64,000 nt of DNA from Nereocystis luetkeana (taxonomy: Eukaryota > Sar > Phaeophyceae > Laminariales > Laminariaceae), in assembly GCA_031213475.1 (NCBI GenBank), contig JARUPZ010000026.1:3490823-3554822 (forward strand), in the 5' to 3' direction. Under the pieces are notes generated by a model. That model was not told the origin of the DNA. It worked only from the letters and a program-made list of their open reading frames with translations, and did not search any database. The translations under genes were made by a program, and so were the position numbers. This document shows positions 300 to 59,905 of the stretch, piece after piece; position 1 is the stretch's first letter; every line of letters starts with the position of its first letter.

Positions 300-1295
300 G
301 CTTTTGTCTTACATCAAGACCATGGCACTCGGGGGGTACCTCTGGGGAGGGGGGGTGTTTGACGGGCGCCTTTCTCTCCACGTGACGGACTTTTCAAGAT
401 AAAAGTCACCGGCGTATTCGATGGGTACCTCTGAGGTGTGTCCTTGGCGGGCGCCTCTCTCTCCACGCGGCGGACTCTAGAAGTAAAAGACGCCGATGTG
501 TTGGATGGGCGCCTCTTTCCAAGAGGTATAGTTGGTACCTGGTATGTCTACCTATTTTTTCATGAGATGAGCTTGAAGCCCTTGACGTTTGTGATACCAG
601 GTACCTAGTAGGTACCTATTTCGTTGTGATGAACTTCACGTGAGAGTCACTGATGTAGTTGATTAGGCACCTCTTTGGCGAGGTGACGTGCCAGGTAGCT
701 GATACCTGGCAGCTGGTAGGGACATCTTTCATCGTGACGTGTTTTAATAGGTAGCTATTTCTGTGTGACGTGTTCTGATAGGTGCCTCTCTCTATGTGGC
801 GTATCCAATACCAGGTAGGTATTCCTTTCAATGTGACGTATCATGATAGGTGGCTCTTTCGCTGTGGCGTACCAGTATCTGATAGGCACCTGTTTCAATG
901 TGCCGTAATCTGATAGGTACCTATTTCAATGTGACGTATTCTAATGGGTACCTCTTTCCGTGAGACGTAATATGATAGGCATCTCTTTCTGTGTGACGTA
1001 ATATGATAGGTGCCTCTTGCCATGCGACGTAATATGATAGGTACATCTTGCCATGCGACGTAATATAATAGGTACCTCTTTCCGTGTGACGTACTATAAT
1101 AGGTACGTCTTCTCGTGTGACGTAGTCTGAAAGGTGCCTCTTTCCATATGGCGTACCAGGTACTATGATAGTTCCCTCTTTCTGATGGGTATCTATTTTC
1201 ATGTAACGTATCATGATAGTTACCTCGTTCGCTGTGACGTATTCTGGCAGCTATTTCTTTTGAACGTGACGCATTTACTGCAGCACTGTCAGTAC
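300..1295. repeat. 31-bp minisatellite derived from the end of P4-ATPase exon D and its donor
   Basis: On the minus strand this intron starts with GTACTG. It then holds many degenerate units of about 31 bp centred on GGAAAGAGGTACC, spaced for example 1026 to 1057. The exon ends in GGAAAGAG|GTAC, so each unit repeats the exon end plus splice donor. Further out (616-660, 566-600, 470-500, 340-420) are longer degenerate copies whose reverse strand still reads like the exon, for example SDSHVKFITTK against INDFKFITWKE. Many units also carry TGACGT. Confidence 0.8.
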
Positions 1296-1403
1296 CTCTT
1301 TCCAGGTGATGAACTTGAAGTCGTTGATGTGCCGATCCCAGACCAGAGTGGGCGAAGAGTTGGCGTAGTTGTCGGCCCTGTGGCGGGCGACATCTTCGAC
1401 TAT
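1296..1403 (-). CDS. P4-ATPase exon D (ED..RH..D..N block)
   Basis: 108 nt, 36 codons, acceptor GGTGCGCAG, donor GGAAAGAG|GTACTG. It reads IVEDVARHRADNYAN and ends with INDFKFITWKE. The tandem array in the next intron repeats the last bases of this exon together with its donor. Confidence 0.88.
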
Positions 1404-4400
1404 CTGCGCACCAAAAGGAAAATCGACAACAGAGATGGGGCGGTACCGATTGATACGCATCCTTCGAAATATACAGCTGAGGGAGGGGGGGGGGGGGGGG
1501 GGCTTTCAATCCTGTTAGTGTTTACCGCGATCCCATTTTGGCGACAGACTAGCTCTAATTTGAGTGGTTTGCCCCCCTCAACGAGACTGAAGCTTGCTCT
1601 AAAAGGGTTGAAAGCATCCATATATATTCAATAGGACCTACGTTACACACAAAAACCTACAAAGTTCGATGTTTTTACCTACAATATTTGGTCCTATTCA
1701 CTATGGCCCCCCGTAGCATAAGACGACTCGGGAATCGAGAGCGGCCGTAAGTCGCAAGTCGCGGATGCCACTGCAGGGTTGCGAAGAAAAATAACGGAGA
1801 CCGCCAATCCGATTGGACAGCCCCTATCTATGGTCTAGGCACATGCATATATATACCAGGGTATATATACATATATGCAAGACGAAACTTTTTCTTAAGG
1901 CTCTCTCTCCATCCCATTTACTATCTTCTTGCTCTTTATTTGTCTCCCCATCCCACGTACTATTACGGGAGACCATAGTTAATAGGACCAAATATTGTCG
2001 GTAAAAAGAGTTAAATATATAGGTGTTTGTGTGTATCATAGGTCCTATTTACTATGGCCCACCGTACTAGGTAACTCAAATCTGGGGTCACATAGTGGTA
2101 GCCTCTCTCCCCCCCCACCCCCCACCCCCACCGCTAGCAGCTCGCCCTTCACGAGACTCGCTGTCACGGTGCTTCGCGCTTGGTGCAAGCAATGTCTGCC
2201 TGGTCGGTGGAAACCCGACGCGCACCGTCCCGGCGTTGTATGGGTGCGAGGGTCTTTTGTCATACGACTATGGCCATGCATGACATCGAGTATACCCCCC
2301 CCCCTCCTAGGAGATGGATGGTGGCCACAGCCGGGCACACAGGAAGGGGATACGACTAGCAGAAAGTGTCTATGTACTATACGGAAACAGCGTAATGAGC
2401 GCCCAACCGTTGGAAGTGTCTCTATTAGGAGTAGGAACGGTGCTCCGACTCGAAAGGGATGCGTGGTCAATGGTCAAATGACTAAGACAAGCAACAAATG
2501 AGTACGCCCCCCCTCCCCCCCTTCCCTCCCTCCCTCCCTCCCCCCCCCCCCTACAGCTTCCCCACGACGGTTCGTGCCTTGCATTTGTTGTCGCGAGAAC
2601 ACTGCAGCCCTTTTTCCCCCTCTTCGACTTGCGTCTAATAGCCTAGTCCGTTTTTAACCAACACAACGACTCTGGCAGTCAATTGTTTACGTTCGTCACC
2701 GCAAGAGCCTCCACCCCCCCCCCCCCCTCCCTCCCCGCCGCTCGTCCGACAGAAAGCGTTTTTGAACCAAAAAACAAACAAACAATTTTTTGTCGTATAG
2801 TATGCCTGGTACACCTCCATCGCAGCCTGTGCCCCTTTGATCGCGATCATAAGAATCGTTCACACACTAATACGAGGACGGAGCGGTTCTTACATTCCCG
2901 TCCGGAGTAGCACTCCATAAAATCTGTACACTTCGGGAGTGTTACCCACACACTGCAGACAAGAGAAAATGTGTAGCTACCTACTGCAAGAGCGCCGTTT
3001 TCGGTTTAAGGTTGTCACGGGAGAGCTCGTACCTCGGGGGGGGGGGGGGGGGGGGGACCCAGTTGTATATACCACTCTGACAGGAAGATGTGTTCCCCAT
3101 TTTTGTTCTGGTATTTTGCCTCAGAGTCCAAATCGGGGTCATTCCCGGCCGGAGCGGTAAAAGCTCAAGAAGCGCACCAACCTCCACACGAAAAAAAAAC
3201 AGGGCTCTCTGCGGGTCATGACGCGGCCCACGGGTCGGGTGAGGGGCAGTTTAAACGCTAACGAGTTGAGTCGGGTCGGGTCGGGTCGGTTCGGGTGGGT
3301 CCAGGGAGTATATCAACTCTCACAGGTCCGGTTGGGTCACCCTTACCCGACCTGACTCGACCCGGCCCGACCCGCGAGGCGTGGCCTGACACGACCCCCG
3401 AGGTTTGACCCGACCTGACCCGACCCGTGAACAGGCTATCGGCCGGAGTAGTACGACTTTGGGCGCTAATATAAGGACCTTTTCGTAATCAAGGTGAATA
3501 CCAAGCGGTTCTTATATTTACGCCCAGAGTTGGTACATGGTTTCATCCTCCGTCGTAAATATCAGGATGTTTTAGACACTCCTATGAAGACGAAGCGGTC
3601 CTTATGTTTACTGGCACCCAGGGTTGTAAAGCGCAAGAAGCTTCGTACAATAGCTCACGACACTTCCACGTGAAAAAAAAGAAAGAAATAGGAGTCCGTG
3701 TTTTAATTATGCTGCCCTTTGAAGGCTGCAGTCCCGATTTGGGGACAACCCGCGCAAATTAATTAGCGGGCTGCCCCCCGAGACGGAATTGCAGTCCCTA
3801 TAAGGATCAATCAACCCTGTTCGTTGCATGCAGTGCTCAACCATTGTACACATCAAGCGTGCAGTATGCACGCACCCAACCATCGTGCCGTTGCGGCCGC
3901 AGCAAGAATATTTACGCTCAACCATCGTGCCATTGTGGCCGTATGTAAGGCCTAGGCCAATGAAAACGCCAAGTCCGATAGTTTTTCTTTCAGATATATT
4001 GCTTTAAAAAAGCGGCCAAAACATTTCCTCGTACCGCCGCTGAGGGAAAAAAGAGAGAAAAGAGTTTGATTTTTCACTTTTTTTTCCCCCCCAACGGCTG
4101 CAGGCGGCGAAATTTGTTTTTTCTGGTTGAAAATTGTCAACTAGCCGATAGAAACCAGCTCTCGCGACGATTGACGCTCGATCTCAACATGGACTCAGCC
4201 CACGGCCAAGCCGCTCGGTGTCCGGCGAGGCTAACGAAGATAGTAGAAGGCATCGAAGATATCAGGTGGATCCATGGTCTAGGGGGCGAGAGCTTGCCGG
4301 CGGCGTCCTACGGTATATCCTCCCAAACCTGAAAAAAATACTATTTTTTGCCATTCGAGACGGATGGAGAAGTTTTGCACACCAGCGGCCAATTGTTTTT

Positions 4401-20045: not shown

Positions 20046-20155
20046 CCTGCTGTTGAAGTCGGTACAAGGTGTCGGTCTGAGTTTTGTATCCTTAACGAGG
20101 GCAACCAAGGGCCTCTAGAGCGGGCAGGCTTCTTCACTCAGCAGGGAACGGCGGC
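20046..20155. promoter_or_regulatory. Possible divergent promoter region
   Basis: About 110 bp between the flippase start on the minus strand and a plus-strand ATG at 20156. No clear TATA box or other core element is visible. The proposal rests on position only. Confidence 0.25.
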
Positions 20156-20578
20156 ATGGCAGCCGGCCTGGTGCAGCTTCTGCGTGCGTCTGCTGCTTCT
20201 TTCTCGTGTTGTGGTTTTTGTCGCATTCGTTTATGTCGTCAGCCAATGCACGGGGCGGCGGACCATGACGGTTTCATACACGCCTTCCAGCTTTTAAAAA
20301 CACCACAAATTTGCGGCCCAATCGATCCCACGCGGGCCGGATGCCTTACACAGGACAGTCGGAAACACGTGGGTGGTGTGAATATCAGGTGTGTGGGCAT
20401 GAAGGCATTTTCCGATCCTCCGCCGATCTACCAAGAGGGTGGCGCTTGGCGCGCTGTGCATTCACACGAGGGGATGTTGTCTCTACAATATTCCCTTTCA
20501 CTGAACGCAAACATATCTAATGGAAACCCATATTCAGCACGATTGGAGTTTGCACGAGCTCCTGTTGGAGGAACATGA
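20156..20578 (+). other. Open frame; possible 5' exon of the HDAC gene or chance ORF
   Basis: 140 codons starting MAAGLVQLLRASAASFSCCG. The N-terminus is basic, serine/alanine-rich and poor in acids, as in organelle-targeting leaders. No domain is recognised and no donor was found that joins to 22934 with confidence. Confidence 0.25.
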
Positions 20579-21350
20579 TGCTCTTGCATGTGCGATGGCT
20601 CGCGGTCGTCTGCTCTGTAAGAGCTTGGCGCGTGAGGGTCTACCCGCACTCTCCCTCCCGGATCTGGAGTAGCAACTATAAATACAGGGACCGCAAAAGC
20701 TCCAGCGCAATCTACCACGACCGCAGAACGCGATGGGCCGGGCTGGGCAGCACCACGACCAACTCAGGGTCCGTTCAAGGTATTGCTCACTTCGCCGTCA
20801 AGCACTACTCGTGTCTTATCTGGAGTGTGAATCTTGTCATTAATATTTGCGTTTGCCTGCTCGACTGTTTCCCTCGCTCTTGGCGATGCCCGCGGTGTTA
20901 TGCCCTTCGACCCCCGAGCAGGCCGGTCCTGCCCTCTGGGCCGTTGCCAAGTTGAACCATTAATACTGCTGCACTATTATTAATAACTGCTTTGTGCGCA
21001 AGCTACGTATGCGTACAGGTATTCACAAGCCAGACTCTCGTGTGATCGTGACCCGACTACGTAATCATGCCAAATGTTGACACATGCGTGACAGACATGT
21101 ACGTACGGTATACCGTAGAGATGTTGATATGTTGACGTGCATGTTGGCACCGTACACCCGCGGTCGTGTGTGACGCCCAGGGAGTAAGTAGTTAAGAGTG
21201 TGTTCGTTCTTTCTACCCGTCGGCATCCAGCACAACCAGAGTGTCCGTGCCGAATCGTCAATCCTAAGACATGATCTGTGGTCACAAAACTACTTGGTAT
21301 TAATACTTGTTTGACACAGAATCTACTGCTGCTGTACTACTGTTGTACTG
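20579..21350. other. No gene seen
   Basis: Upstream region of the HDAC gene or intron. No motif, repeat family or convincing exon was recognised. Confidence 0.35.
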
Positions 21351-21461
21351 TTACGGGGGGTCATATTAAAGAGCACCAAATATGGTTATTAATAGTAAAA
21401 ACAGCGAAATATATAGGTTTTTGTGTGCACCGTAGGTCCTATTCACTATGGTCCCCCGTAG
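21351..21461. mobile_element. MITE-A copy
   Basis: TTACGGGGGGTCATATTAAAG ... GTCCTATTCACTATGGTCC plus CCCGTAG. The left arm is mutated. Confidence 0.8.
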
Positions 21462-22049: not shown

Positions 22050-22095
22050 AGTGCCCCGGGGGGCGCTTTAGTTGAACGACGCCCCCGGGGGCACT
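22050..22095. repeat. GC-rich inverted repeat
   Basis: Arms GTGCCCCGGGGGGCG and CGCCCCCGGGGGCAC around a 14-base loop, one mismatch. A related copy of the arm follows at 22109. Function unknown; it can form a strong hairpin. Confidence 0.6.
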
Positions 22096-22930: not shown

Positions 22931-22933
22931 CAG

Positions 22934-50000: not shown

Positions 50001-53000
50001 AATCTGTCCCATGGGGCAATAGAGGTAGCACTTTTTTGCCTCGCAAGGCGAAATCTGTGTGACCGGTGGCGCTTCTTAACATCCTTTAGGACTGCAGCCC
50101 CGTTCTGGGCACAAAATACTTGGAGAATTGGAACGGTCTATCCCCGACACGGGACTGCAGCCCTACAAGGGGTACCATAGTAAATAGGACCTATGGTGCA
50201 CACCAAAACCTATATATCCACGTATTTTTACTGACAATATTAGGTCCTATTTACTATGGTCTCCCGTAAAATAGTGTTCTACATTATTGTGCATGGTATA
50301 CCTACTGTATACCTGGTATAGGCTATGGGATTATTCATCGGCGCAAAAATAAAGCCTACATATATTTCCTATACCAGCGTTTCGACGAGGTACGGCGTTT
50401 CTCACGGGAAAGAGCCTGATAAAAACAAACGGAAGGTGGATAAAACGGAATAGTTACCGTAACACAGGCACCACTTCGGGATCAAATATAAGGATCGCTT
50501 GGACTTCATATTAATATATAAATCATCCTTATATTTCCGCCCAGCGGATTGAGTATATCATATATATAGGTTGTGTATACCTCATTTATACCTATATATC
50601 TGTACCGTTTGTCACTTGGGTTTATCCGGTACCTGGCAAGATATAACAACGGTATCGAGGCAAGTCTATCTACTACTGTGTGGATTATGTCAGGAACGAC
50701 ACATACTATTACGGGGGACCATAGTTAATACCTGGTAGGACCAAATAATGTTAGTAGAAATCGATAAATATTACCGTTAATATTTATCCATTTTTACTAA
50801 CATTATTTGGTCCTATTAACTATGGTCCCCCGTAGTACCATAGGGTTGTACCCGTTTCCGTCTGGAGCTCATTCTTCGATCTACCAGGTATATCCTATCA
50901 GTGAGCAGGTAACCCGAAACCGACCTCGAGAAAACGGACTAACACCCAGGAATACGAGGATGAAAAAAAACGTGTGAAACGAAAACGATGTGACGACAAT
51001 GCTGGGTCAACCCTTCAAACTGAACGACACTCCCGTTTTGAGGACGATTGGGTCGGATAAATAGTTGGAATTGGCGTTAGATATAGGAGAAGATGGTTAG
51101 AGATCGGGAGCCGATATTACAATAATCGGCAGTTTGTTGTTGTAGAGAGCTGTAGGCGTTAACCCTTTTAGGACCGCAGCCCCGTTTTGGGGGCAAACTA
51201 CTTGTAGTTAGTGTGCTTTGTCCCCAAAACGGGACTGCGGTCCTGAATGGGTTAAGGTTCACATTCTTTGGCTGAGTGCGTATCAGTAGTACGCAGCTCA
51301 TTTCGACAGCAGCAGCGGGCACTGTTTGGTTGATGTTTTCTGTGCAGTGTGCTATCTATACCTGGTATTACGGGGGACCATAGTTAACAAGACCTATGGT
51401 ATACATAAAAACCTATATGTTTAACCATTTTTACTAACAATGTTTGGTCCTGTTAACTATGGCCCCCCGTAATATATACTACTGAAAGGGTTCAAGAGAA
51501 GAGGCAGTGAGAAATGTTCTATTACGGGGGACCATAGTTAATAGGACCTGTCGTATGCATAAAAACCCTTTACCTTGGTATATTTAACAATATCTACTGA
51601 CAATATTTGGTCCTATTTATTAACTGTGGTCCCCCGTATTAGCCAAGAAAAAACTACCCTTACAGCAAAATGCGTACCACTCCGGACGTAAATATAAGAA
51701 CATACTGATACTCATATTAATGCATAAACGGTCCTTATATTTACAACCAAGGTAGTACCAACTATACGTGTATTTATATATAAAAATACTTCTATATACT
51801 GGTATAGCCATACCACGCTTGGAAGTGTCCGAGTATGATAATCTAAGGGTACTTGGGGGGCAATTTTATCTGCTGTAGTAATTATACCAGAAACAAGGTT
51901 CTTAAGAGGTACACCCCCCCTGCGCATCACAGCCCCGTCGGTCGTGACGCTTTTGCCCAACATACGGTGCCCCTATCTTGCATTGGTAGCAGTAGTGGCC
52001 CCTAGATGGTGCCGGTTGCCTGCTCATAGTGCTTGTGGAACCGCGTGGCACAGGTGGGATTTACTAGGCGGTGCAGCACGTAGTGTGCGGAGTATATGGT
52101 GCCGGTTGGCGCTTTATATTGCCGGCATTGTTGGCTGGCGCATACGGTAACGGCACTATAGAGGGACCGGCACTACTGCTGTACCGGCCAAACAGGGGAA
52201 TCACCGACCTACTGAAGTTGTGTCTTTCATAAGGCAATACAAGGCGCTTCGCTCCGCGGGCGGCCTACGCCGCCCGCTACGCTCGCTCAGGAAGGAAAAA
52301 ATTACATCAAATTGTGCGAAGCGAACAGAGGTCCACGATTGAGTTTATTTTTTTCAAGGATCGTAATTGCAAACCGGCGACTTGATAATGCCTAGAGTCC
52401 CGCCGCCTTGCTTCAGGAAAAAACAGCTCCGACGTCAGCTTGGATGCCACATATACGCTTCGCGTCGCGGATGCCGTACGTACGTACATACACCCCAGGT
52501 AGGGTACTACTGTCTGTACTTATTTTCTTCGCACGATATGCTCTATGTCTGTACTGTATGTACGAAGAAAGCGAAAGCACAGCACGGCACAGCAGCAAAA
52601 ACAATGAAAATGAAACCGAAAACTCGGAAAGGAAAAAAAAAGTCCCCGTCCCCTCTCGTGTAACATTTTTCTGCCTGATTGGAACACCTTACACCCGGTC
52701 GAAAAGAAGAAAATAAACAAATCGCACAGAAGAGCTTCTCTCTCAGCCTCGTACGCCGCCCGTTCCTCTCGCGACCACCTCGCTACCGATTCGGTCCGGG
52801 TAAAGCTTTTATCACTCTTTGCCACAATCAGCCCCGTCGCCCGCCCCGCGTGAAGCCCGGTGCTCACCGTGGCCGTCGTTCGCCAGCTCGATAACGTTAA
52901 AAAAGGACCTACGGTACACACAAAAACCTATATATTTACCTATTTTTACCGTCAATATTTGGTCCTATTTACTATGGTCCCCCGTAATAGTAATAGCTGC

Positions 53001-55192
53001 TGTATACTTGTATAGTCGTGTCACACGCATTTTTGGGAGTTCCAAGTTTTGACGAGATCCTCTATTTTTGCAGAGGTGTGTGTGTGTGTTTTTTTCTTTT
53101 TTTTCATAAACCGGTGTCTCTTTCGTTTCATCGCATGTGTTATACGTATATCATATGCATGCGCAGGATCGGGAGGCGCTTGAAGGAAGTGTTCGGCCGT
53201 AAAGTGGCGTTCGGCTTGGAGGGAGGCTACAACCTGCAGGCAAGAAATCGGATACATACCGGTTGACGGCATTCCTTCCCCTCGACGGACATCCGTCAAG
53301 ACCTACGTCAAGACCTACGTCAAGGCAGCCATCAACGCACACGCCAAAACAACCGTCGAGGAAATCTCACACTAAAATACGTACCTGGTAGTGCACTATT
53401 CGTGCCCGGGGAGGGAGAGCCGCCTTGAAATTCCCACACTAAAGTTACAGGTAGTAAGTGGTATACAAGCTTTTTTTTGTATGGTTTTTGGCTTCGCGGT
53501 ATTTTACCGCCATGGGATACGCTTGTGCCCCTACACCACCAACACGTTTCAACACACGCGCTACGATACGAGTAGCGTTTTTTTTTCTATTTTTATTATT
53601 ACGGGGGACCGTAGTTAACAGGGGCCAAATATTATTAGTAAAAATAGTTAAATATATAGGTTTTGATGTACAACAAAGGTCCTACTAGTCAACAGGGGCC
53701 AAATATTGTTAGTAAAAATAGTTAAAAATATACCAGGTAGGTTTTTATGTACAACATAGTTCCTATTAACTATGGTCCTCCGTAATAGTAGTTTTTTTTT
53801 GCCTTTTGAGGCAATATTTCTGAATAACGGGAACCCTCAACCCGTTTAGGACTGCAGACTCGCTTAGGGGACAAACCAGTAAATGCTTTTTAATTACGGG
53901 GGATCTATAGAGTAAACAGGACCTACCGTACACACAAGAATCTAGATGTTTTCCTGTTTTACTAACGGCATTTGGTGCCTATTTAGTATCCCCCCCGCAA
54001 TAATAGTTTTTGTCCCCAAAACCGGGCTGCAGCCCTATAAAAGGCTTGCCACTTTTCTGAGTAATTCGCCCCCCGAAAAATGGAAGTTTCCTCCTTCAAG
54101 GGTTAACCGTCCCTTTTCGGACTGGTTTCCCGTTCAGAGTATATCCTTCTTGGGGGTTACTTGGGTTTGCGCCGAAAAGGGGTCTGCAGTCCGTAAAAGG
54201 TTGACCCGAAGTCGTCGGAATTTCGTGTTCTTATGTTGCAACATTTTCTTGCGTTGTATAGATCATCGGGTAGCCTGTATATTTTCCTCTGAAAAAGCAG
54301 TTTTTGGGGTGTCACCGGGAGAAGAACCTCAGGAATAAAAAAACGGTGGCATCTCTCCCGTACGTAAAAAATAGCATATGCGTATCGAGTCCAATTTGGA
54401 GCGAGGTGCAGCAGAGCCGCTCGCCCTGATGGCTTGAACGCCGCAGTGGCGACGAGAACCTATCGTCTCGTTGCTCCGTCCGTATCTCGAAAGGGATGCG
54501 TGGTCAATGGTCAAACAATAAGGCAAGCAAAAAATGAATACGCCCCCCCCCCCCCCCTCCCTGCCACTCTAGTTCACTACCGCAGCAAAGTCCGAGGAGC
54601 CCTTGACGGGCCGAAGCTACGCCAAACGCGAGCAGGTATACATACATGCCTGCTGACTGCTGGCGGCAATCTTGTCCCGAGGCGGACAGCCGTCAAGGAA
54701 TCCCCCCCGCACTGGAACTGCCTTATTAAGTCTAAAGGGGCCTCGGTGGGCCAAAAGTATTGATAGATAGGCCGCCAACTGGCAGCTGTTCAAGAGAAAG
54801 CGTCCCGATATGGGGGGAGACGCTCGAGAATGTGTCGCCGTAGCGGCCCGCCCTTGGTAGACACTGCTTGCTGTCGTTGAGTGATTTCTGTGCGGAAGAA
54901 GCAGGTGGGTGTGTGTGTTTTTGTTTTTGTTCGACAAAATCCGTTTTGTACTAGACCCTGAAACCTCGAGATAATTCGTCCCCGATAGTCCTCGCCGTGT
55001 TGAGAGAGTATCCGCTGAGAGTTGTTTTGGTCCGAATAGGCGACCTAGACGATGCTGACGTTAAAGGCACACCCCTTATCCGTTTGTAACCCTAGGCGCT
55101 CGTTTTGCCATTTCCCCACCGGTACGTTCTAGCAGGTGACACCCCAGGCGATACGGAAGACGATCGAGCCCTTCGCGTCCTCCGCCGCCTGA
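22934..55192 (+). CDS. Class II-type histone deacetylase (HDAC), at least ten exons, 5' end not found
   Basis: Exons: 22934-23058, 24946-25094, 28828-28852, 30316-30433, 32095-32231, 37294-37366, 47582-47670, 48379-48476, 53167-53239 and a likely last exon 55136-55192. Every join keeps phase and rebuilds family sequence. The enzyme removes acetyl groups from lysines using zinc. Motifs in order: HPECPARV; IERVHKREYLDEV; YICPDTFE; ARPPGHHA (catalytic His pair); GFCLVCFAAVAASHA; LDFDVHHGNG (zinc Asp and His); YCSIHQGGIFPGSGD; VIVSAGYDAL (zinc Asp); FGLEGGYN (catalytic Tyr). LEGGYN, rather than a class I ending, points to class II or the related bacterial/plant type. About 310 residues are visible. 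Whether it acts on histones or other proteins cannot be told. Confidence 0.93.
23498..23673 (+). repeat. 22-bp tandem repeat, 8 copies
   Basis: Eight head-to-tail units of ACCGGCACTATTTGTAGCGG plus CA, with a few substitutions. No spacers, so not CRISPR. Related phrases (ACCGGCACTACTGCTGTACC) occur near 52170. Confidence 0.9.
24150..24300 (+). repeat. TTG/GTTGGTG microsatellite
   Basis: Long run of GTTGTTGTTG and GTTGGTGGTG units in HDAC intron 1. Confidence 0.9.
24522..24725 (+). repeat. TGATCTG-array repeat family, copy 2
   Basis: TATGATCTAGATCATG, then TTGCCCGGTGGAACCCGTAC, GGGTTGGATCTGTACT, ATATCCTGCACAACCTGTCG. Same body as copies at 6757 and 32790. Confidence 0.65.
24757..24843 (+). 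repeat. (CCT)n microsatellite, ~28 units
   Basis: Uninterrupted CCT triplets in HDAC intron 1, about 100 bp upstream of the next exon. Confidence 0.95.
24946..25094 (+). CDS. HDAC exon (RVHKREYLDEV block)
   Basis: 149 nt, acceptor AACAACAG, donor GTGAGT in phase 2. Contains ATTTAAIERVHKREYLDEV and KRICAKGGGAADFD. The acceptor is chosen because it gives phase 0 and a suitable linker; the start could shift slightly. Confidence 0.82.
25198..25313. mobile_element. MITE-A copy carrying a TACCAGGTA micro-insert
   Basis: TA|TTACGGGGTGCCA, then TACCAGGTA at 25211-25219, where other copies run straight into TAGTAAATAGG. The right arm, TTTGGTCCTATTTAATATTG, is intact with CCCGTAA|TA. Confidence 0.85.
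25569..25806. mobile_element. MITE-A copy interrupted in its right half
   Basis: The left part (TTGCGGGGTGCC, AATAGGACCTACGGTACACA) runs to about 25665. After about 115 bp of other sequence the terminal arm TTTACTATGGTCCCCCGAAG appears at 25785. Insertion or rearrangement. Confidence 0.55.
25807..27290. other. No gene seen (HDAC intron 2)
   Basis: About 1.5 kb with no recognised exon or element. A C-rich tract at 27267-27290 ends it. Confidence 0.4.
27291..27846 (+). mobile_element. C-tailed SINE, longest copy, plus strand
   Basis: Starts after a C tract with TTTTATATAGGTTGGGTTGG, continues with GCTAGACAACCAGCGTGCCG, TGCGAGGTAAAGAACCTTTA and GAAATTAAATCAACTCATTG. It then has the common 3' half (CTTCATGCGACTTGCCAGAC, GCCTGGTCGGTGAAAACCCG, CATACGACTACGGCCATGCA). 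It ends twice: GAGTACATCTCTCCTATC, then GAGTACA plus a 28-base C-rich tail. About 550 bp with no ORF. The same element lies on the minus strand at 38625-39165. Confidence 0.8.
27847..28180. other. No gene seen (HDAC intron 2)
   Basis: Contains a TGTGTGT tract at 28143-28170 just before a MITE-A copy. Confidence 0.4.
28181..28284. mobile_element. MITE-A copy, intact (TTAAT form)
   Basis: TA|TTACGGGGGGCCATAGTTAAT ... ATTAACTATGGTCCCCCGTAA|TA. Both arms carry the same subterminal variant. Confidence 0.92.
28828..28852 (+). CDS. HDAC microexon of 25 nt
   Basis: Acceptor GAGAAG, donor GTGGGC. With one base completing the previous codon it encodes T-YICPDTFE. This supplies the expected link between GGGAADFD and the next exon and restores phase 0. 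Confidence 0.8.
28993..29082 (-). mobile_element. C-tailed SINE, 5'-truncated, minus strand
   Basis: The reverse strand runs from CCCGGCATTGCAGGGATGCG through CATACGACTACGGCCATGCA to GAGTACATCTCTCCTGTCGA and GTACACC. This copy has no C tail at its 3' end, but a 12-base G tract (C on the minus strand) borders its 5' side. Confidence 0.65.
29600..29840. repeat. AT-rich dispersed repeat, copy 2
   Basis: Shares AACGCCTCCGTCCGTG / GTTTTCCAAAG themes and the end CTCTCCGATCAGAATGAGCC with the 41926-42176 element. The other end is not clear here. Confidence 0.4.
29841..30315. other. No gene seen (HDAC intron 3)
   Basis: Intron sequence with two long T tracts (29909, 30220). The pyrimidine-rich end leads into the acceptor at 30315. 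Confidence 0.4.
30316..30433 (+). CDS. HDAC exon (PPGHHA catalytic block)
   Basis: 118 nt, acceptor CCCCTGGCAG, donor GTAAGA in phase 1. Contains VCVAASSAWMDAAESALNG and FALARPPGHHATAGVGM. Confidence 0.92.
30518..30617. mobile_element. MITE-B copy, near-perfect palindrome
   Basis: TTAACCCCTTTTTAAGAACCG ... GGACTGCGGTTCTAAAAGGG TTAA. The inner arms are GCAGTCCCGTTTTGGGGAC and GTCCCCAAAACGGGACTGC. Good reference copy of the family. Confidence 0.9.
30627..30738. mobile_element. MITE-A copy carrying a CACCTGGTA micro-insert
   Basis: TA|TTACGGGGGACCATAGTAAA, then CACCTGGTA (30647-30655), then GGACC. Other copies have TAGGACC here. The right arm is CATGGTCCCCCGTA. Confidence 0.88.
30740..30906. 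mobile_element. MITE-C copy, left side truncated
   Basis: Shares GGCCAATCTTGTTTCG, GAGGTATGGAGCTCCCGA, GAGGAGCCTCAGAAACATTA and the right end CTCTATCGTAGAACGCTTCG with other copies. The left terminus is missing next to the MITE-A copy. Confidence 0.65.
30929..31100. mobile_element. MITE-A copy with internal duplication and a TACTTCGAAGTA insert
   Basis: Left arm TTACGGAGGAACACAGTGAA. The palindrome TACTTCGAAGTA (30987-30998) replaces the TA seen in other copies (ACC-TA-TATATTT). The segment CTATTTTTACTAACAATATT occurs twice. The right end is lost. Confidence 0.75.
31307..31411. mobile_element. MITE-A copy, intact (TTAAC form)
   Basis: TA|TTACGGGGGGCCATAGTTAAC ... GTTAACTATGGTCCCCCGTAA. Strong hairpin. 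Confidence 0.92.
31740..31961 (+). mobile_element. C-tailed SINE, 5'-truncated, flanked by C tracts
   Basis: A C tract (31740-31757), then GGATGCAGCCCACCCTTCAT, GCCTGGTCGGTGAAAACCCG, CATACGACCACGGCCACGTA, ending ATAATGAGTACCCG plus a C tail. Confidence 0.8.
31962..32045 (+). mobile_element. Very short C-tailed SINE end, in tandem with the previous one
   Basis: Directly after the previous C tail: CCCTGTCCTCACGCTCATAC, GACTACGGCAATGCATAAC, then ATGAGTG plus a C tail. It contains only the last 45 bp or so of the SINE and lies 50 bp upstream of the HDAC exon at 32095. Confidence 0.7.
32095..32231 (+). CDS. HDAC exon (DFDVHHGNG zinc site)
   Basis: 137 nt, acceptor GTGGAAG, donor GTGCGT after GDGR in phase 0. 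Contains FCLVCFAAVAASHALETLGC and VAMLDFDVHHGNGVAALVKG. Confidence 0.92.
32358..32452. mobile_element. MITE-B copy, right terminus altered
   Basis: TTAACCCTTTTAGAACCGCAG ... CAAAACGGGACTGCGGTTCT, then TGTATGTAAGG in place of AAAAGGGTTAA. Confidence 0.8.
32453..32789. other. No gene seen (HDAC intron 5)
   Basis: No exon, repeat family or open frame recognised. Confidence 0.4.
32790..33140 (+). repeat. TGATCTGTG-array repeat family, copy 3, with a MITE-A insertion
   Basis: About 14 units of TGATCTGTG/TTTGATCTTCA, then the shared body GTTTTGCCCGGTGGGAGCCG, CAGTCTGCGCGATCTGAATC, GGGTGTGTACTGCTA. A MITE-A copy (32996-33097) splits it. The body resumes at ACACAGACCCTCGCACAGTC. Confidence 0.75.
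32996..33097. mobile_element. MITE-A copy inside the TGATCTG repeat
   Basis: TA|CAAGGGACCATAGTAAATAGG ... TTGGTCCTATTAATTATGG plus CCCCCGTAA|TA. Confidence 0.87.
33251..33319. mobile_element. MITE-A copy, right half lost
   Basis: TA|TTACGGGGGACCATATTAAAT, interior AATAGGACCTACGGTAAACA, ending at CTATTTTTAC where the next copy begins. Confidence 0.8.
33322..33427. mobile_element. MITE-A copy directly abutting the previous one
   Basis: TA|TTACGGGGGGGCCATAGTTAG ... GTTAACTATGGTCCCCCGTGA. The expected second half of the neighbouring copy is absent on its far side, so this is not a simple nested insertion. Confidence 0.85.
33690..33750 (-). mobile_element. C-tailed SINE, 3' end remnant
   Basis: The reverse strand reads TGGTCATACGACTGCGGCCA, TGGATGATATCGAGTAGACC, then a C-rich stretch. 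A G tract (C on the minus strand) also borders the other side. Confidence 0.6.
34480..34734. mobile_element. MITE-C copy inserted in LINE copy 2
   Basis: 255 bp between perfect direct repeats GGGGGAG (34473-34479 and 34735-34741). The ends are inverted: GCGTTCTGGCACGATAGAG at left, and CTCTATCGTAGAACGGG at right. The interior includes CTGAGGCTCCTCACTTATGG and GAAAACTGACGTCAGCAAGA. LINE copy 1 lacks it, which defines both boundaries. No ORF. The target duplication of at least 7 bp does not identify the superfamily. Confidence 0.85.
34780..35475 (+). pseudogene. LINE copy 2 ORF2 C-terminal fragment
   Basis: 231 open codons matching the region after the RT in copy 1 (for example PKLEYAGEARGGNANFVKQL and AELGMLPAQGTYRRDKVEWQ). 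The first 20 or so codons belong to shifted frame. Confidence 0.75.
35983..36087. mobile_element. MITE-A copy
   Basis: TA|TTACGGGGGACCATAGTAAAC ... TACTATTCGATCTGGCCC plus CCCGTAA. The right arm has several changes. Confidence 0.82.
36103..36137 (+). repeat. C-rich tract
   Basis: Run of C with a single T interruption in HDAC intron 5. Confidence 0.9.
36499..36605. mobile_element. MITE-A copy
   Basis: TA|TTACGGGGGGCCGTAATAAAT ... GTCCTATTTACTATGCCC plus CCCCCCGTA. Confidence 0.85.
36941..37034 (+). repeat. 94-bp C-rich tract
   Basis: C runs broken by single G, T or AC, about 260 bp upstream of the HDAC exon at 37294. The strand can form i-motif or, opposite, G-quadruplex structures. A slipped or expanded C tail from a lost retroelement would be one origin. 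Confidence 0.9.
37294..37366 (+). CDS. HDAC exon (YCSIHQ...FPGSGD)
   Basis: 73 nt, acceptor TTCCGTCAG, donor GTGAGG in phase 1. Encodes IRYCSIHQGGIFPGSGDAQD and TGPL. The join GDGR|IRYCSIHQ matches the family's DxRVRYxSxHQ pattern. Confidence 0.88.
37439..37512. mobile_element. MITE-A copy, left half only
   Basis: TA|TTGCGGGGGACCACAGTTAAC, then GGGCCTAATGTTGTTGGCAA and loss of the right arm after TTTTAGGTTGTACC. Confidence 0.75.
37640..37815. mobile_element. MITE-C copy
   Basis: AATCGTCGGGAGGCCAATCT, GGGCCATGAGATATTTATTC, GAGGAGCCTCAGAAACGTTA, right end CCTCTCTCGGAGAACGCCTC. The left terminus is unclear. Confidence 0.65.
38415..38519. mobile_element. MITE-A copy, intact (AAAT form)
   Basis: TA|TTACGGGGGGCCATAGTAAAT ... 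ATTTACTATGGTCCCCCGTAA|TA. Both arms match. Confidence 0.92.
38625..39168 (-). mobile_element. C-tailed SINE, full length, minus strand
   Basis: Reverse orientation of the 27291 copy: it starts (39165) with ATATAGGTTGGGTTGGTGTC and ends at GAGTACATCTCTCCTATCGA and GTACACA plus 13 C. About 540 bp. Confidence 0.8.
39169..39225 (-). mobile_element. Short C-tailed SINE end in tandem
   Basis: The reverse strand reads CCCTTACGTGGACGGCCATG, CATGATAATAAGTACCCCTC, then C-rich sequence leading straight into the 5' end of the full-length copy. Confidence 0.65.
39226..39369 (-). mobile_element. Third C-tailed SINE end of the tandem series
   Basis: The reverse strand reads TGTCCGCCTGCTCGGTGAAA, CCCGGCAATGTAGGGATGTG, GACTGCGGCCATGCATGATA, then TGAGTACA and a long C tail (39226-39249). 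A C tract also precedes it (39351-39369). Confidence 0.7.
39370..40044. other. No gene seen (HDAC intron 6)
   Basis: About 675 bp. A phrase near 39846 (CAGATCCGGGATCACAGAGC) also occurs at 25330, so a dispersed repeat may be present. Confidence 0.35.
40045..40240 (+). repeat. ~72-bp tandem repeat, 3 copies
   Basis: Three units containing GTACTACCAG, ACGTACAGAAACCTAG and CAGAGTCTAATTTC. Confidence 0.8.
40445..40554. mobile_element. MITE-B copy
   Basis: TTAAGCCCTCTGAGAAAACTGC ... GAACGAGACTGCAGTCCTAA AAGGGTCAA. One TTAA end is mutated. Confidence 0.75.
40668..40970 (-). mobile_element. C-tailed SINE, 5'-truncated, minus strand
   Basis: The reverse strand runs from CGCTGTCTCTAGAAGTGCCT through CACCCTTCATGCGACTCGCC and GCCTGGTCGGTGAAAACCCG to GAGTACATCTCTTCCATCGA, GTACA and a C-rich tail. 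Confidence 0.78.
41064..41143. mobile_element. MITE-A copy, internally deleted
   Basis: A long G tract, then CATAGGAAATAGGACCAAAT, then directly CTACCATAGGTCCTATTTAC. Only about 80 bp. Confidence 0.75.
41372..41665 (+). repeat. ~52-bp tandem repeat, 5-6 copies
   Basis: Units with ATCTCAACCATTGTGCTGGT, CCCGAAGGGGCTCAGCTGTG and CTACAAGGTC. Alternate units differ, suggesting a higher-order pair. Confidence 0.85.
41926..42176. mobile_element. Short AT-rich element with inverted ends
   Basis: Ends are inverted over about 20 bp: GGTTCATTCTTAGCGGAGAG at left; CTCTCCGATAAGAATGACCC at right. TA-like flanks on both sides. About 240 bp, no ORF. Probably another TA-targeted MITE family. Confidence 0.6.
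42500..42834 (-). mobile_element. tRNA-derived SINE, full length, minus strand
   Basis: The reverse strand begins GGCGTCCCCGATGGCTTGGT (A-box-like), then TCGTGGGTTCGAGTCTCACC (B box). A body follows: GAACGTGAGTTAG-type segment, ATTCGATGAAAATCGACGAT, CAGTGGGAATGCTGAACCCT, GCCACGTACCGGGGG, GGAGGTTTT-type end. The tRNA part cannot fold its acceptor stem, so it is not a tRNA gene. Confidence 0.8.
43153..43255. mobile_element. MITE-A copy
   Basis: TA|TTGCAGGGGACCATAGTAAAT ... GACCGATTTACTATGGTCC plus CCCGTAA|TA. Confidence 0.88.
43256..43915. other. No gene seen (HDAC intron 6)
   Basis: Nothing recognised beyond a 10-base T tract. Confidence 0.4.
43916..44188 (+). other. Uncharacterised 90-codon open frame
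   Basis: Frame beginning MRPQMGVTYTDADDISNRPL and including QVALVTSGDGHSLIARLKG. No family recognised. Possible acceptor (GGCCGCAG) just before. It lies inside HDAC intron 6. Confidence 0.2.
44236..44345. mobile_element. MITE-B copy (TTAA both ends)
   Basis: TTAACCCTTTTAGAACTCCTC ... GAGACAGCAGTACTAAAAGGG TTAA. Confidence 0.85.
44510..44618. mobile_element. MITE-A copy (AAAC form)
   Basis: TA|TTACGGGGGGCCACAGTAAAC ... GTTTACTACGGTCCGTCCCC. Both arms carry the AAAC variant. The right terminus has a small duplication. Confidence 0.85.
44850..45112 (+). other. Possible exon of an unidentified gene
   Basis: The frame from 44889 reads protein-like sequence (HWANAHEAIHRRLGISDDHR, then ESWTYLHERRPGL and VPRAWLLKMIHGG). 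It is followed by a strong donor-like GGTAAGCC at 45090. No family recognised. A nested gene, a captured fragment, or chance. Confidence 0.25.
45113..46074. other. No gene seen (HDAC intron 6)
   Basis: Contains a GGC/GGCGGCGG run at 45290-45315 and a phrase with TTTCGAAATCGATTTCG palindromic character at 45510. No exon recognised. Confidence 0.4.
46075..46262 (-). mobile_element. tRNA-derived SINE, tRNA part missing, minus strand
   Basis: The reverse strand shares TAACATTCGATGAAAATCGA, CAGTGGGAATGCTGAACCCT, GGGACGACACCCGTGACCAC and the tail TCTTACGGGTTAGGATGG with the 42500 copy. Confidence 0.75.
46353..46620 (+). mobile_element. tRNA-derived SINE, plus strand
   Basis: Starts GGCGTCCAAGGTGGCTCAGT, B box TCGTGGGTTCAAGCCTCACC, then GAACGGAAAGCGCGAAGAGC, GATGAAAATCGACGAGCAGT, and GCACGTACC plus a G tract. 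It lies 90 bp from the minus-strand copy. Confidence 0.8.
46621..47387. other. No gene seen (HDAC intron 6)
   Basis: G-rich purine tract around 46800-46840 and a GGC run at 47074-47093. No exon recognised. Confidence 0.4.
47388..47563 (+). repeat. 17-18-bp minisatellite just before an HDAC exon
   Basis: About ten units of TGAATGTTTCCGTTGA. The array ends 18 bp upstream of the exon starting at 47582 and so supplies much of the region near the acceptor. Confidence 0.85.
47582..47670 (+). CDS. HDAC exon (GSGETWETY)
   Basis: 89 nt, acceptor CTCGATAG, donor GTGAGA in phase 0. Encodes NLKHLPFFGSGETWETYEAQ and LEEALAWLE. It lies right behind a TGTTTCCGTTGA minisatellite. Confidence 0.9.
47872..47978. 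mobile_element. MITE-A copy in the 708-bp HDAC intron 7
   Basis: ATGACGGGGCACCATAGTAAA ... TCCTATTTAGTACGGCCCGC CGTGA. Confidence 0.83.
48379..48476 (+). CDS. HDAC exon (SAGYDAL zinc site)
   Basis: 98 nt, acceptor AACGCAG, donor GTGAGA in phase 2. Encodes AFEPDLVIVSAGYDALEADE then LATASLQPEDFG. Confidence 0.93.
48477..48954. other. No gene seen (HDAC intron 8 start)
   Basis: Phrases like TTCTTGTCGATCACTATTTT at 48518 recur at 49455, indicating a dispersed repeat. Confidence 0.4.
48955..49430 (-). repeat. Dispersed ~450-bp repeat, copy 2
   Basis: Reverse orientation of 3955-4400. Shared blocks include CGTCTCGAATGGCAAAA, CCATGGGATCCACCTGATAT, CGAGATCGAGCGTCAATCGT and TTTCAGACTT near the end. 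A 16-base T tract occurs in this copy. Confidence 0.7.
49435..49585 (+). repeat. Degenerate tandem repeat
   Basis: Several imperfect units of the type TTCTTATCGAGCAATATTTT. Length about 20-25 bp. Confidence 0.55.
50076..50172. mobile_element. MITE-B copy fused to a MITE-A copy
   Basis: TTAACATCCTTTAGGACTGC ... CACGGGACTGCAGCCCTACA AGGGG, where the next MITE-A begins without its own GGGGGACC end. Confidence 0.75.
50168..50269. mobile_element. MITE-A copy abutting a MITE-B copy
   Basis: Left arm starts at GGTACCATAGTAAATAGGAC. Right arm GGTCCTATTTACTATGGTCT plus CCCGTAA. Confidence 0.8.
50709..50834. mobile_element. MITE-A copy folded on itself end to end, with TACCTGGTA insert
   Basis: TA|TTACGGGGGACCATAGTTAA, then TACCTGGTA (50729-50737), GGACCAAATAATGTTAGTAG. 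The second half is the complement of the same half (CTAACATTATTTGGTCCTAT), so the whole element is one hairpin. Confidence 0.9.
51008..51045. mobile_element. MITE-B half copy
   Basis: TCAACCCTTCAAACTG and ACTCCCGTTTTGAGGACGA only. Confidence 0.45.
51159..51255. mobile_element. MITE-B copy (TTAA both ends)
   Basis: TTAACCCTTTTAGGACCGCA ... AACGGGACTGCGGTCCTGAA TGGGTTAA. Confidence 0.88.
51368..51472. mobile_element. MITE-A copy inserted next to a TACCTGGTA motif
   Basis: TACCTGGTA (51359-51367) ends in the TA that precedes TTACGGGGGACCATAGTTAA. Right arm GTTAACTATGGCCCCCCGTAA|TA. Confidence 0.9.
51522..51639. mobile_element. MITE-A copy with TACCTTGGTA insert
   Basis: TA|TTACGGGGGACCATAGTTAA; interior AAACCCTT, then TACCTTGGTA, then TATTTAAC. 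Right arm CTATTTATTAACTGTGGTCC. Confidence 0.85.
51640..52897. other. No gene seen (HDAC intron 8)
   Basis: Holds two copies of a GTGCCGGTTGCCTGCTC-like phrase (52009, 52099) and a perfect hairpin GCGGGCGGC/GCCGCCCGC at 52257-52279. No exon recognised. Confidence 0.4.
52898..52987. mobile_element. MITE-A copy, left terminus missing
   Basis: Starts AAAAAAGGACCTACGGTACA and keeps TTTGGTCCTATTTACTATGG plus TCCCCCGTAA|TA. Confidence 0.85.
53167..53239 (+). CDS. HDAC exon (LEGGYN catalytic tyrosine)
   Basis: 73 nt, acceptor ATGCGCAG. Encodes RIGRRLKEVFGRKVAFGLEG then GYNLQ. The donor is CAG|GCAAGA, a GC donor. Without splicing the frame would read eight more codons and stop. Confidence 0.9.
53599..53785. 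mobile_element. MITE-A copy with tandem internal duplication and TACCAGGTA insert
   Basis: TA|TTACGGGGGACCGTAGTTAA. The segment AACAGGGGCCAAATATTRTT AGTAAAAATAGTTAAA occurs twice. The second copy carries TACCAGGTA at 53731-53739 where the first reads TATAGG. Right arm TAACTATGGTCCTCCGTAA|TA. Confidence 0.88.
53837..54044. mobile_element. MITE-B copy split by a MITE-A insertion
   Basis: Left part TCAACCCGTTTAGGACTGCA ... AAACCAGTAAATG. A MITE-A follows at 53894-54000. Right part TTTTTGTCCCCAAAACCGGG then CTGCAGCCCTATAAAAGG. Confidence 0.8.
53894..54000. mobile_element. MITE-A copy nested in MITE-B
   Basis: TTACGGGGGATCTATAGAGTA ... GTGCCTATTTAGTATCCCCC CCGCAA|TA. Confidence 0.82.
54104..54205. 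mobile_element. MITE-B-like relic
   Basis: GGTTAACCGTCCCTTTTCGG ... GGGGTCTGCAGTCCGTAAAA GGTTGACC. The arms are only partly complementary. Confidence 0.4.
54470..54562 (+). mobile_element. LINE 3' end fragment with C tail
   Basis: TTGCTCCGTCCGTATCTCGA, AAGGGATGCGTGGTCAATGG, then AAAATGAATACG and a 16-base C tract. Only about 70 bp of element remain. Confidence 0.75.
55136..55192 (+). CDS. HDAC probable last exon
   Basis: Acceptor TTCTAGCAG, phase 0. Encodes VTPQAIRKTIEPFASSAA then TGA. Length and character (a short final helix after GGYNL) fit the family, but the sequence is too short to be certain. Confidence 0.5.
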   Translation: MTPQAIRKTIEPFASSAA

Positions 55193-56899: not shown

Positions 56900-57198
56900 T
56901 AGGGGTAGTGGCACTTTTTTTTCGAGACTATTTTCTGACTCTCTAACTGGCTTCTTAACCCAGTGCCGTTGGAATGCCATTGCTATAAGTGTTCAACGCC
57001 ATTATTCGTGTGATGTTCCTACCTGGTATGTGATATTGCGCACTTTCGGTGGTATGGCGTACTTTCCAGTTTTATCAAAATCAAGGTTCGGGCGATGTAA
57101 GATCTCACGTATGAAGTTTTTTGGCGCCTCTAGCGTAGCACGCTTCCCTCGACGCGGAAACTGCAAGGGGTGTCCTCTGTACGCCCTCAACGGTAGAG

Positions 57199-57886: not shown

Positions 57887-59607
57887 CCTGGTGATACAAT
57901 TACCGGGAGCAGGAGTGCCCCCTTTGGGTTTACACCCGCGGAGGGCGAAAAAGGTAGGACAATACCCATGCGTAGAGTTGTCCCCCGTCCGCCAACTACT
58001 CCGAGTACGCGGAATTAGTATAACGGGCACCACCCACCTACGGGCTACATTCAGCAGTACCAGTCGTTTTAAACCCCCGGCGAGTAAACGGATTCACGCC
58101 GGGCGCTACAAACGCGAGATACTTCAGGGGGGTCGGTAGACACCCGCCGGGGACCGTTTCTTGGTTGCGTATTCAAGGGTTTAATACCTGTATATTCGAG
58201 GCGTGATACACGCCGTACATTACACGCGGTGCTGAACTCATCATTTTGAAGCCGCGATACATGGCGCCGACAGCCCACAAAACCCACGACAGCCCACAAA
58301 CCCTGTGGCAACATTACCGCTTACGCACAGGGTAACCATCAACCTTCACACTACACGCGGTCTTCCTCAAACTCCGTCCCGCCACCTGCCGCCAGTACAA
58401 TTCGATTCGTTGCACTCGAACGGATTATAGCACTAAAGTCACGATCGCTGTTCTGGTGCCCGGTGCCTGCTAGGCCGGCGTGAGCGACCGCCCTCCATCA
58501 ACACAGGTTGCCACCCAAAAAAAATGATCCATCAGTCGATATTGTTTTGGCGATTTCCTAACGCGGCGATCCACTATAATAGCAACCCTAAAAGTCGGGG
58601 GGGGCCCCCATGTCGGTGATCCAATACGCAGCTGAAAAAACGTGCAGGCGATCCCACTCAGTACTGTGATCCACTAAGGAACTACTACACCAGCAAGGCT
58701 ATCGACAGGGATTCATCTGCACTCTAGGCGTCGCGGCGGCACCATCGGCAGACAATACTGACCTTTGATCTATCCAAGCCAGGTAAAAACGCAACGAAAA
58801 AGACAAGAACAAAACATTTAAAACCCCCGTTCAATTTTAAATTTCATAGTAAAGGTGTCGTATGCTCGCCATCCTGGCCAGGCCCATATCTCACAGTACG
58901 GGGTGCACTTTTTGGCTCACTGTGTCCTGGCCGATTGAGCACTCAAGGTATCTACGGCCGTTCACAGTGCCCTAAAATCTTACTCTAGTTTACTTGTTGT
59001 GGGACAAGCGCATCGGAGCATTCGTTGGTTTTCGCGAAACAAACGTTCTTCGAGACGTCAGGCTTTACCGTGAGATTTTTGAGGCCGCCTTGCGAGGGGG
59101 GGCTCATAGAATATGCCACCACCCCTGTGGCACTTTGCTCGCCACCCGTCCTGCGAACGCATCAACCCCGCCATCACCGTACCCCAGCAAGCTGGCGAAC
59201 AAACCCCGCCATAGTAAAGACACCGGCCATCCCCAGCACCGACGGAGGAACGAAAGCGCAGGGCGCGGCGCCGCTAGTGCTCAACCGGTCTATGGCGAAC
59301 GGCTGGAAACTGGGAGCCGGGGTGGGTGTCCCATCGCCCGCGGAGTGTGCCCCCGATGGAACATGTGTGCTCGAGCCCCCTAGAGACGGCGTGGGCGTCC
59401 CGGAAGACGTCGTAGAGTTGCAGCCACAGTCGACTTGAAAGTTGGCCTCAGACGCAGGTATGTATGCGCCCGTTGCATTGAAGTCACCTGCAACAATAGC
59501 GGGTGGTCAAATAAATCAACGACGCGCTTTCGTTTGTAAGGGAGGAAGACGTATCTCGACATTTTTTGTTCGTTGAGTTAAGTGCCACAGGTAGGTATCG
59601 TAAGTGC
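57887..59607. other. No gene seen
   Basis: About 1.7 kb. Open frames at 57891, 58994 and 59025 are unlike known families. No repeat family of this window is present. Confidence 0.35.
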
Positions 59608-59905
59608 CTCATACCTGGTATATCACAAGTACCACAACCACGAGCATCACAAGTATCGCAAATACTACAAACTCTATCCCAAGTATCACAAGTACCACCC
59701 GTATCACACGTATCGCCAATAATATCACAAGTACCAAAGGAGTCACAACCACTAGTATCACAAGTAAGTACCAAAGTAGTCACAAGTGTCACAAATACTA
59801 CAAGTATCCTAAGTATCCCAACCACAAGTATTGAAAGTATCACAAAGCATCACAAGTATCACAAGTATGACAAGTATTGGAAGTGTCACAAGTATCACAA
59901 AATGA
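59608..59905 (+). repeat. AAGTATCAC minisatellite
   Basis: Some 25 imperfect 9-bp-based units such as CACAAGTATCACAAGTACC. Begins right after a TACCTGGTA motif at 59612. Confidence 0.85.

Follow-up and report, generated by a model that had tools for sequence, protein, structure and literature searches.

What puts the same nine letters into the genome of a brown alga again and again? The question is raised by a stretch of 64,000 nt of the kelp Nereocystis luetkeana (contig JARUPZ010000026.1, positions 3,490,823-3,554,822; hereafter the window), in which the palindrome TACCWGGTA (W = A or T) occurs 33 times, 17 times as TACCTGGTA and 16 times as TACCAGGTA. These two forms are reverse complements, CCTGG and CCAGG being the same sequence on opposite strands. 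In 100 dinucleotide shuffles of the window the mean was 0.54 copies and the maximum 3, while genome-wide 182,395 copies were counted in 465.1 Mb (1,987 contigs), about one every 2.55 kb, compared with 1,744 of the reversed motif. The massive excess reported by a sequence-only reading of the window is therefore real, and 32 of the 33 coordinates given there are exact, 28492 having to be corrected to 28482. The genome-wide figure does not count independent events, because the copies are in part inherited (see below). We consider it likely that each TACCWGGTA is the scar left by the excision of a cut-and-paste transposon that targets TA and carries CCAG(G) ends.

Apart from the genome-wide counts, two sets of sequence were analysed. 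The 264-kb set consists of the window and twenty 10-kb stretches (L012-L031) picked without regard to the motif, about 0.06% of the genome; the ~320-kb set comprises all stretches read, mostly pieces of 3-10 kb (0.07% of the genome). In the latter, the analyses of flanks, variants, TACCAGG sites, empty sites, repeat ends and inverted pairs omit L005 and L006 (overlapping L004), L009 (mitochondrial) and L041 (the inverted twin of L040), and the TACCAG-site signature and the counts of ends and scars in the miniature inverted-repeat transposable element (MITE) called MITE-A also omit L043-L046. The set still includes L007 and L008, which have ~1.2 kb in common, and L001-L004, L007, L008, L042 and L047 were selected for carrying the motif; when the variant and empty-site counts were rerun on the window and L012-L031 alone, every conclusion was unchanged. 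The 264-kb set holds 110 exact copies on 14,630 TAs, or about one TA in 133, and 133 words with one mismatch, compared to ~57 by chance.

For each exact motif, the left flank, one TA and the right flank were joined and paralogues crossing the junction were searched for. In the 264-kb set 16 of 109 sites were spanned by a paralogue, nine of them without the insert and eight of those with the TA kept, while the control word TAGGWCCTA gave 21 sites, 16 spanned and none uninterrupted. The ~320-kb set gave 135 sites, 24 spanned and 14 uninterrupted, against 24, 19 and none for the control, which lies mostly within MITE-A and measures only the false positives of the method. Among these 14 empty sites, one has GA instead of TA in its best uninterrupted paralogue, and four lie in TATATA-type sequence. 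TACCWGGTA is a 7-bp insertion at TA, which adds CCWGGTA after the TA as the sequence-only reading had claimed, and the resulting TA on either side corresponds to the target duplication of IS630/Tc1/mariner/pogo elements. Six insertions had been named individually in that reading. Those at 50729, 53731 and 30647 differ by 7 bp in total from sister MITE-A copies; the alignment gap is split at 50729 and 53731, where the sequence is AT-rich, and at 50729 the aligned sister has CA at the site, but another sister has TA and no nearby mismatch. The other three (25211, 34109 and 62379) are not clean, so that support for the general claim comes from the broader empty-site tests. The putative footprints of the window are given below:

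536-544: TACCTGGTA footprint, exact match
595-603: TACCAGGTA footprint, exact match
809-817: TACCAGGTA footprint, within or beside the array of 31-bp period
1154-1162: TACCAGGTA footprint, TA only in 2 of 8 spanning paralogues, within or beside the same array
17749-17757: TACCAGGTA footprint, exact match
18574-18582: TACCAGGTA footprint, immediately to the right of a ~330-bp MITE-like repeat
19673-19681: TACCTGGTA footprint, no second copy of the surrounding DNA among the best 40 of 8,851 candidates
19741-19749: TACCTGGTA footprint, likewise no second copy of the surrounding DNA among the best 40 of 8,851 candidates
21492-21507: double footprint TACCAGGTACCAGGTA, copies starting at 21492 and 21499
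21762-21770: TACCAGGTA footprint, followed by TACCAGGGTA at 21769
21961-21969: TACCAGGTA footprint, exact match
23247-23255: TACCAGGTA footprint, exact match
23347-23355: TACCTGGTA footprint, exact match
23421-23429: TACCAGGTA footprint, exact match
23847-23855: TACCAGGTA footprint, exact match
25211-25219: TACCAGGTA in MITE-A, differing from its sister by 11 bp over two gaps, not a clean 7
28482-28490: TACCTGGTA footprint, exact match (the corrected coordinate)
30647-30655: CACCTGGTA in MITE-A, one letter off the motif, 7-bp insertion, sister with CA at the site
34109-34117: TACCTGGTA in copy 2 of a long interspersed nuclear element (LINE), copy 1 without the motif and with GA at the site, 10-bp difference
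37897-37905: TACCTGGTA footprint, exact match
41263-41271: TACCAGGTA footprint, exact match
41906-41914: TACCTGGTA footprint, followed by TACTGGTA at 41913
45927-45935: TACCTGGTA footprint, exact match
46932-46940: TACCTGGTA footprint, exact match
47816-47824: TACCTGGTA footprint, exact match
50310-50318: TACCTGGTA footprint, exact match
50729-50737: TACCTGGTA in MITE-A, 7-bp insertion, TA only in 20 of 40 spanning paralogues
50882-50890: TACCAGGTA footprint, exact match
51359-51367: TACCTGGTA footprint, bordering a MITE-A copy on its left
53382-53390: TACCTGGTA footprint, exact match
53731-53739: TACCAGGTA in MITE-A, 7-bp insertion, TA only in 26 of 38 spanning paralogues
57020-57028: TACCTGGTA footprint, exact match
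59612-59620: TACCTGGTA footprint, exact match
62379-62387, minus strand: TGCCTGGTA in a repeat resembling a short interspersed nuclear element (SINE), possibly a mutated footprint, sister copy without TA there

The DNA on both sides of the insertions is not neutral. Oriented flanks prefer W at -7, A at -6 and R (A or G) at -1 and avoid A at -2 and T at -1, with the mirror image on the opposite side, a symmetry that a symmetric transposase-target complex would give. This signature is a marker independent of the scar's own letters; because the model was trained on CCWGG, the flank z of that word is circular, whereas the z of other words is not. It was used to score all words of the form TAxTA (x being one to eight letters, seen at least four times), after which chosen words were rescored in the 264-kb set, with expected counts from a trinucleotide model. 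Besides CCWGG (110, 2.5 expected), the signature was carried by CCAG/CTGG (35, 8.8 expected, z 5.5), CCGG (14, 4.4 expected, z 5.0), CCAGGG/CCCTGG (13, 0.7 expected, z 4.6) and CCATGG (2, 0.3 expected, z 3.6), whereas the mirror control CCTG/CAGG was near expectation (15, 11.3 expected, z 0.4) and the mirror controls CCTGGG and CCTAGG were absent (0.7 and 0.2 expected). Genome-wide, TACCAGGGTA was counted 11,422 times (reversed control 409) and its mirror TACCTGGGTA 1,578 times (reversed control 362), a difference of about 7-fold in which repeats inflate the former somewhat, eight of its first 100 places lying in one array. Slippage at the GG or CC of the palindrome should make both about equally. 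Moreover, TACCAGGGTA amounts to ~6% of the exact copies, compared to an average excess of ~2.7% for each single-substitution class (76 over 26 classes, versus 110 exact). CCWGG and these variants, all consisting of a few letters between two TAs, share one flank signature.

The remaining high-scoring words were AT- or CA-rich, belonged to MITE-A (GGACC), resembled or overlapped the motif (CCTGA, CCTAG, AACCAGG, CCAGGTA) or were rare (CTTCGAAG, 4). TACAGTA/TACTGTA was frequent (103, 40.2 expected) with a flank z of -2.0, and TACAGTA, TACGAGTA and TAGCAGTA were rejected as scars of the same process because they lack the signature; TACAGTA/TACTGTA could be scars of CAGT-ended pogo-like elements, or microsatellite. 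The variants located in the window are:

1854-1863, plus strand: TACCAGGGTA, variant class with footprint flanks, also at 9119, 21769, 21980 and 30022
51797-51804, minus strand: TACTGGTA, that is TACCAGTA, a class with an implied 60% of footprints and 13 members in the window, individually not told apart
40218-40225: TACCGGTA variant for which an uninterrupted paralogue exists, other TACCGGTA at 18906, 19398 and 62691

We infer from these scar letters the ends of an element, and with them its transposase and the length of its overhang. A DNA transposon whose ends read TA followed by CCAG(G) would insert at TA, duplicate it, and later leave in the germ line. Its transposase would cut 4-5 nt inside the ends, producing identical 3' overhangs CCAG(G) on both flanks; these would anneal with each other, the outer C pairing with G and the central A facing A, and repair would pick A or T at the mismatch, giving TA-CC(A/T)GG-TA. 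The nearly fixed sequence had been called hard to explain by ordinary repair, which it need not be if two such overhangs anneal with an A.A mismatch. Annealed in varied registers, CCAG(G) ends on both sides predict the classes observed. In the five-letter register only the central A would face A, yielding CCWGG; the four-letter register would yield CCAG, CTGG, CCGG and CTAG, and the six-letter register CCAGGG, CCCTGG, CCATGG and CCCGGG, the last of which was not seen. The overhang would be 4 or 5 nt, and 5 is the better guess because the predominant class, with five letters, would be flush if the overhang measured 5 nt.

The scars also occur within each other. Double scars (TACCWGGTACCWGGTA) were counted 15,917 times genome-wide (control 2), in all four orientations, equivalent to 8.7% of the exact motif count; later hits thus landed on TAs belonging to existing scars, and doubles with mixed centres show independent events. 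The double motif was also met in nine stretches of viral contigs (eight with the double alone, one with a further copy), which we took as chance. Five copies (L042-L046) of one repeat, 800 bp long or more, are 95.6-98.3% identical; one scar is found in L043, L044 and L046 and is absent from L042 (TA) and L045 (TG), while a double scar with identical centre bases is common to all five. The scars are therefore inherited. Both observations contradict a programmed somatic excision of the ciliate type, which was rejected; in ciliates, excision is repeated in every somatic genome.

A number of results weigh against the excision reading, several of them from the search for the source. No convincing inverted-repeat element with CCAG ends was found, the sequence-only reading having suggested looking for larger elements bounded by TACC...GGTA, in the ~320 kb, in which elements exceeding the length of a piece are invisible. 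The inverted-repeat scan took TAC...GTA pairs and required 15 of 20 matches. Of 543 TACCAG...CTGGTA pairs, the top two agree at 9 of the 12 letters that follow, approximately as by chance; these CCAG-ended pairs, at window 40118-41920 and L025:8056-8365 (16 of 20; 9 of 12), overlap scars, form no family and were dismissed because about one such match per 543 pairs is expected by chance. TACCAG stood in both copies at none of 8,198 repeat-match ends and in one copy at 90, every match being counted from both sides. At 47 TACCAG sites, those with at most one mismatch to the footprint having been excluded, the flank signature was present in 6 +- 14%, which corresponds to ~0-16 ends, i.e. up to ~8 elements in 345 kb. 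TACC k-mer continuations, high-scoring TACCAGG sites and pogo-like loci did not reveal the source element either. MITE-A was rejected as the source because most of its copies end in TA followed by CTATTACGGGGG, and the ~330-bp repeat ending at ~18570 because the adjacent motif is not part of it.

No transposase has been linked to the scars. The DDE_3 profile had no matches among 30 candidates scored, and neither had Transposase_1, for which the controls were silent as well. The DDE_1 profile had 28 matches in the genome, and among the 16 loci examined those with definable ends, which are pogo-like, do not end in CCAG: a 2.2-kb family has the end CAGTACCGGCC and one locus the end GCRCCGGGGTGCG, while a third group probably begins with CAGTGGGGGGCCC, the point where two copies start agreeing, its right end not having been found. 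The pogo-like starts thus read CAGTACCGG or GCRCCGGGG, and in the third group probably CAGTGGGGGG. Since the element was not found, it would be extinct, very rare or almost always excised.

The scars themselves provide further misfits. CTAG is in excess (11, 2.5 expected) without the signature (z 0.4). Like-oriented doubles exceed the expectation for independent hits: in a hand count of 59 plus-strand doubles listed, the centres were alike in 40 and different in 19 (p 0.009), and when the five copies of one repeat were counted once, 36 of 55 were alike (p 0.03); this suggests a contribution from repeat copies or slippage. Per TA, scars are rarer in MITE-A (4 on 815) than in all DNA read (144 on 18,576, partly from loci selected for the motif). 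The ratios of two 8-mers to their own reversed controls run opposite to the prediction, with TACCTGTA at 20,551 (2.6-fold) and TACCAGTA at 46,688 (1.6-fold), whereas against genome-scaled trinucleotide expectations (~20,100 and ~15,400) they are 1.0-fold and 3.0-fold; the reversed pattern is a poor control for 8-mers, and these counts carry no weight in our conclusion. Finally, the main scar of 5 nt is longer than the 3-nt CAG footprint of Sleeping Beauty, TACAGTA/TACTGTA here lacking the flank signature, and it exceeds the 0-4 bp described for the pogo-type element Passer (PMC9976928).

Despite these points, the footprints of an unseen TA-specific transposon, the first of two sources offered in the sequence-only reading, are well supported by the insertion at TA, the mirror-symmetric preference and the variants pointing to CCAG. 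The second, in which an enzyme adds the 7-bp CCWGGTA at TA and never any longer element, agrees with the absence of a longer element with such ends from the DNA read. It does not predict other scar lengths with the same flanks and leaves unexplained the 7-fold higher frequency of CCAGGG over CCTGGG and the presence of the signature on CCAG but not on CCTG; we know of no enzyme that inserts such a 7-mer, and we regard this unneeded process as very improbable. Even less can be said for a palindrome maintained by function, as a protein-binding or regulatory site: the motif is palindromic and abundant, yet comparison with sister copies of parasitic repeats shows it to be an insertion, and it is nested in doubles and variable in length. 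The least credible explanation is a counting artefact caused by the amplification of a few motif-bearing repeat families. Inherited copies do exist, both in the five-copy repeat and in a 528-bp array with TACCAGGGTA, but for 93 of 109 sites no paralogue crosses the junction within the 264-kb set, which is only 0.06% of the genome. Furthermore, the sites at 19673, 19741, 21762 and 21961 lie outside the parts of the window with other copies listed; for window 18400-22100, the copies listed cover only the initial 174 bases and portions of 21205-21625 (best 40 of 8,851 candidates, common words skipped). In bacteria CCWGG is a site of methylation and restriction, an origin that was rejected because nothing links it to the scars here.

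The host could also be the driver of the same chemistry, with a domesticated or trans-acting transposase clearing nearly all new TA elements in the germ line, in which case scars pile up and elements do not. In the 264-kb set ~156 scars are implied (110 exact plus signature-weighted variants) and no element was found. For rice mariners, 2.6-2.8 insertions per excision are tabulated (PMC4423477, Table 3), and this balance is inverted here, because the ~156 implied scars in 264 kb stand against at most ~8 elements in 345 kb. On the other hand, no candidate gene was identified, an extinct ordinary element would leave the same picture, and the inherited double scar in five repeat copies does not fit fresh removal in each soma, so that we consider a purge driven by the host unlikely. 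The broader proposition that the lineage clears essentially all germ-line insertions of TA elements, through either a hyper-excising element or a host-run transposase, is possible but doubtful. If true, this genome would be a dense, datable record of at least 100,000 transposition events with almost no elements.

Excision is usually the hard-to-see half of DNA transposition, and here it would have left a readable mark at the TA frequency given above. Under the transposon-excision reading, the scars are a natural record of the target choice of a transposase, of the repair of breaks by the host and of the frequency of element departure, and their abundance raises the question of where the elements are. 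As each scar adds 7 bp, shifting reading frames, and contains the letters CAGGTA, similar to a 5' splice site, the process may have shaped genes. In addition, the presence or absence of scars could serve as a marker among kelps.

Several other repeats and genes were observed. MITE-A is ~112 bp long, its ends mostly being TA followed by CTATTACGGGGG, and has 51 copies in 345 kb, with no transposase assigned; among its many copies are:

1955-2071: MITE-A copy
17852-17964: MITE-A copy
51363-51474: MITE-A copy

The ~330-bp MITE-like repeat at window 18237-18570 is 86-92% identical to three loci, and 39 other places in the genome share 95-99% identity with its right part, 18400-18570 (best 40 of 8,851 candidates); a telomere-like GGGTTAGGG run lies inside it, near 18424-18458. 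Two copies of a LINE-like element, at window 13721-17570 and 33918-35945, are 78-79% alike, the first with an endonuclease/exonuclease (PF03372) reading frame, and window 32010-32534 has a reading frame with part of a histone deacetylase (PF00850, E 1.8e-13), probably a single exon. A tandem array of 31-bp period occupies window 680-1186. In another tandem array, TACCAGGGTA recurs seven times at 528-bp steps (contig C1:1305185-1308362), which thus carries a scar variant. The pogo-like element of ~2.2 kb, with 24-bp ends of TA followed by CAGTACCGGCC, is found at L048:537-2724 and L051:423-2654, which belong to a group of six related loci (L039, L048-L052). The COX1 of a 37.4-kb contig, taken as the mitochondrion, matches a cluster bearing the name of Macrocystis pyrifera at 98% identity.

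A partial literature search, mostly of titles and abstracts, yielded no printed account of TACCWGGTA as a footprint or of such footprints in brown algae. The closest likeness is to Sleeping Beauty and other Tc1/mariner elements, with their duplicated TA target and a scar of terminal letters between two TAs. The Sleeping Beauty scar reads TACWGTA, with a central mismatch, and Minos, which is Tc1-like, leaves a 4-nt scar near the CCAG variant from the end sequence CGAG. Minos differs from the kelp scars in scale, and relative to Sleeping Beauty and Tc1/mariner the kelp has ~182,000 exact copies with no element or transposase found in the ~320 kb searched. PiggyBac and PIF-Harbinger elements target TTAA or TWA. 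They were rejected as the source because the target here is TA and a 7-bp scar is left; excision is described as mostly precise for both Tourist/PIF (PMC4561436) and piggyBac (PMC8151067). In Tc1/mariner elements, by contrast, the cut lies a few nt inside, so that terminal letters remain, and in Sleeping Beauty the staggered cuts give 3' overhangs and leave CAG (PMC7827188, PMC8151067). Stowaway MITEs in Triticeae are reported to leave TA...TA scars that keep 2-4 and 1-2 terminal-repeat letters, elements having repeatedly entered and left a single site; the study deals with one intron, and its elements are visible, in MITE-rich grasses (PMC1925063), whereas the kelp shows only scars. The pogo superfamily, to which Passer belongs, has its DDE_1 domain in the kelp genome. 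The scale, the 5-nt scar and the missing source are unusual, yet the type of mechanism is known: with only scars seen, membership of a superfamily is putative, and the process would work like a Tc1/mariner-type excision with a longer stagger.

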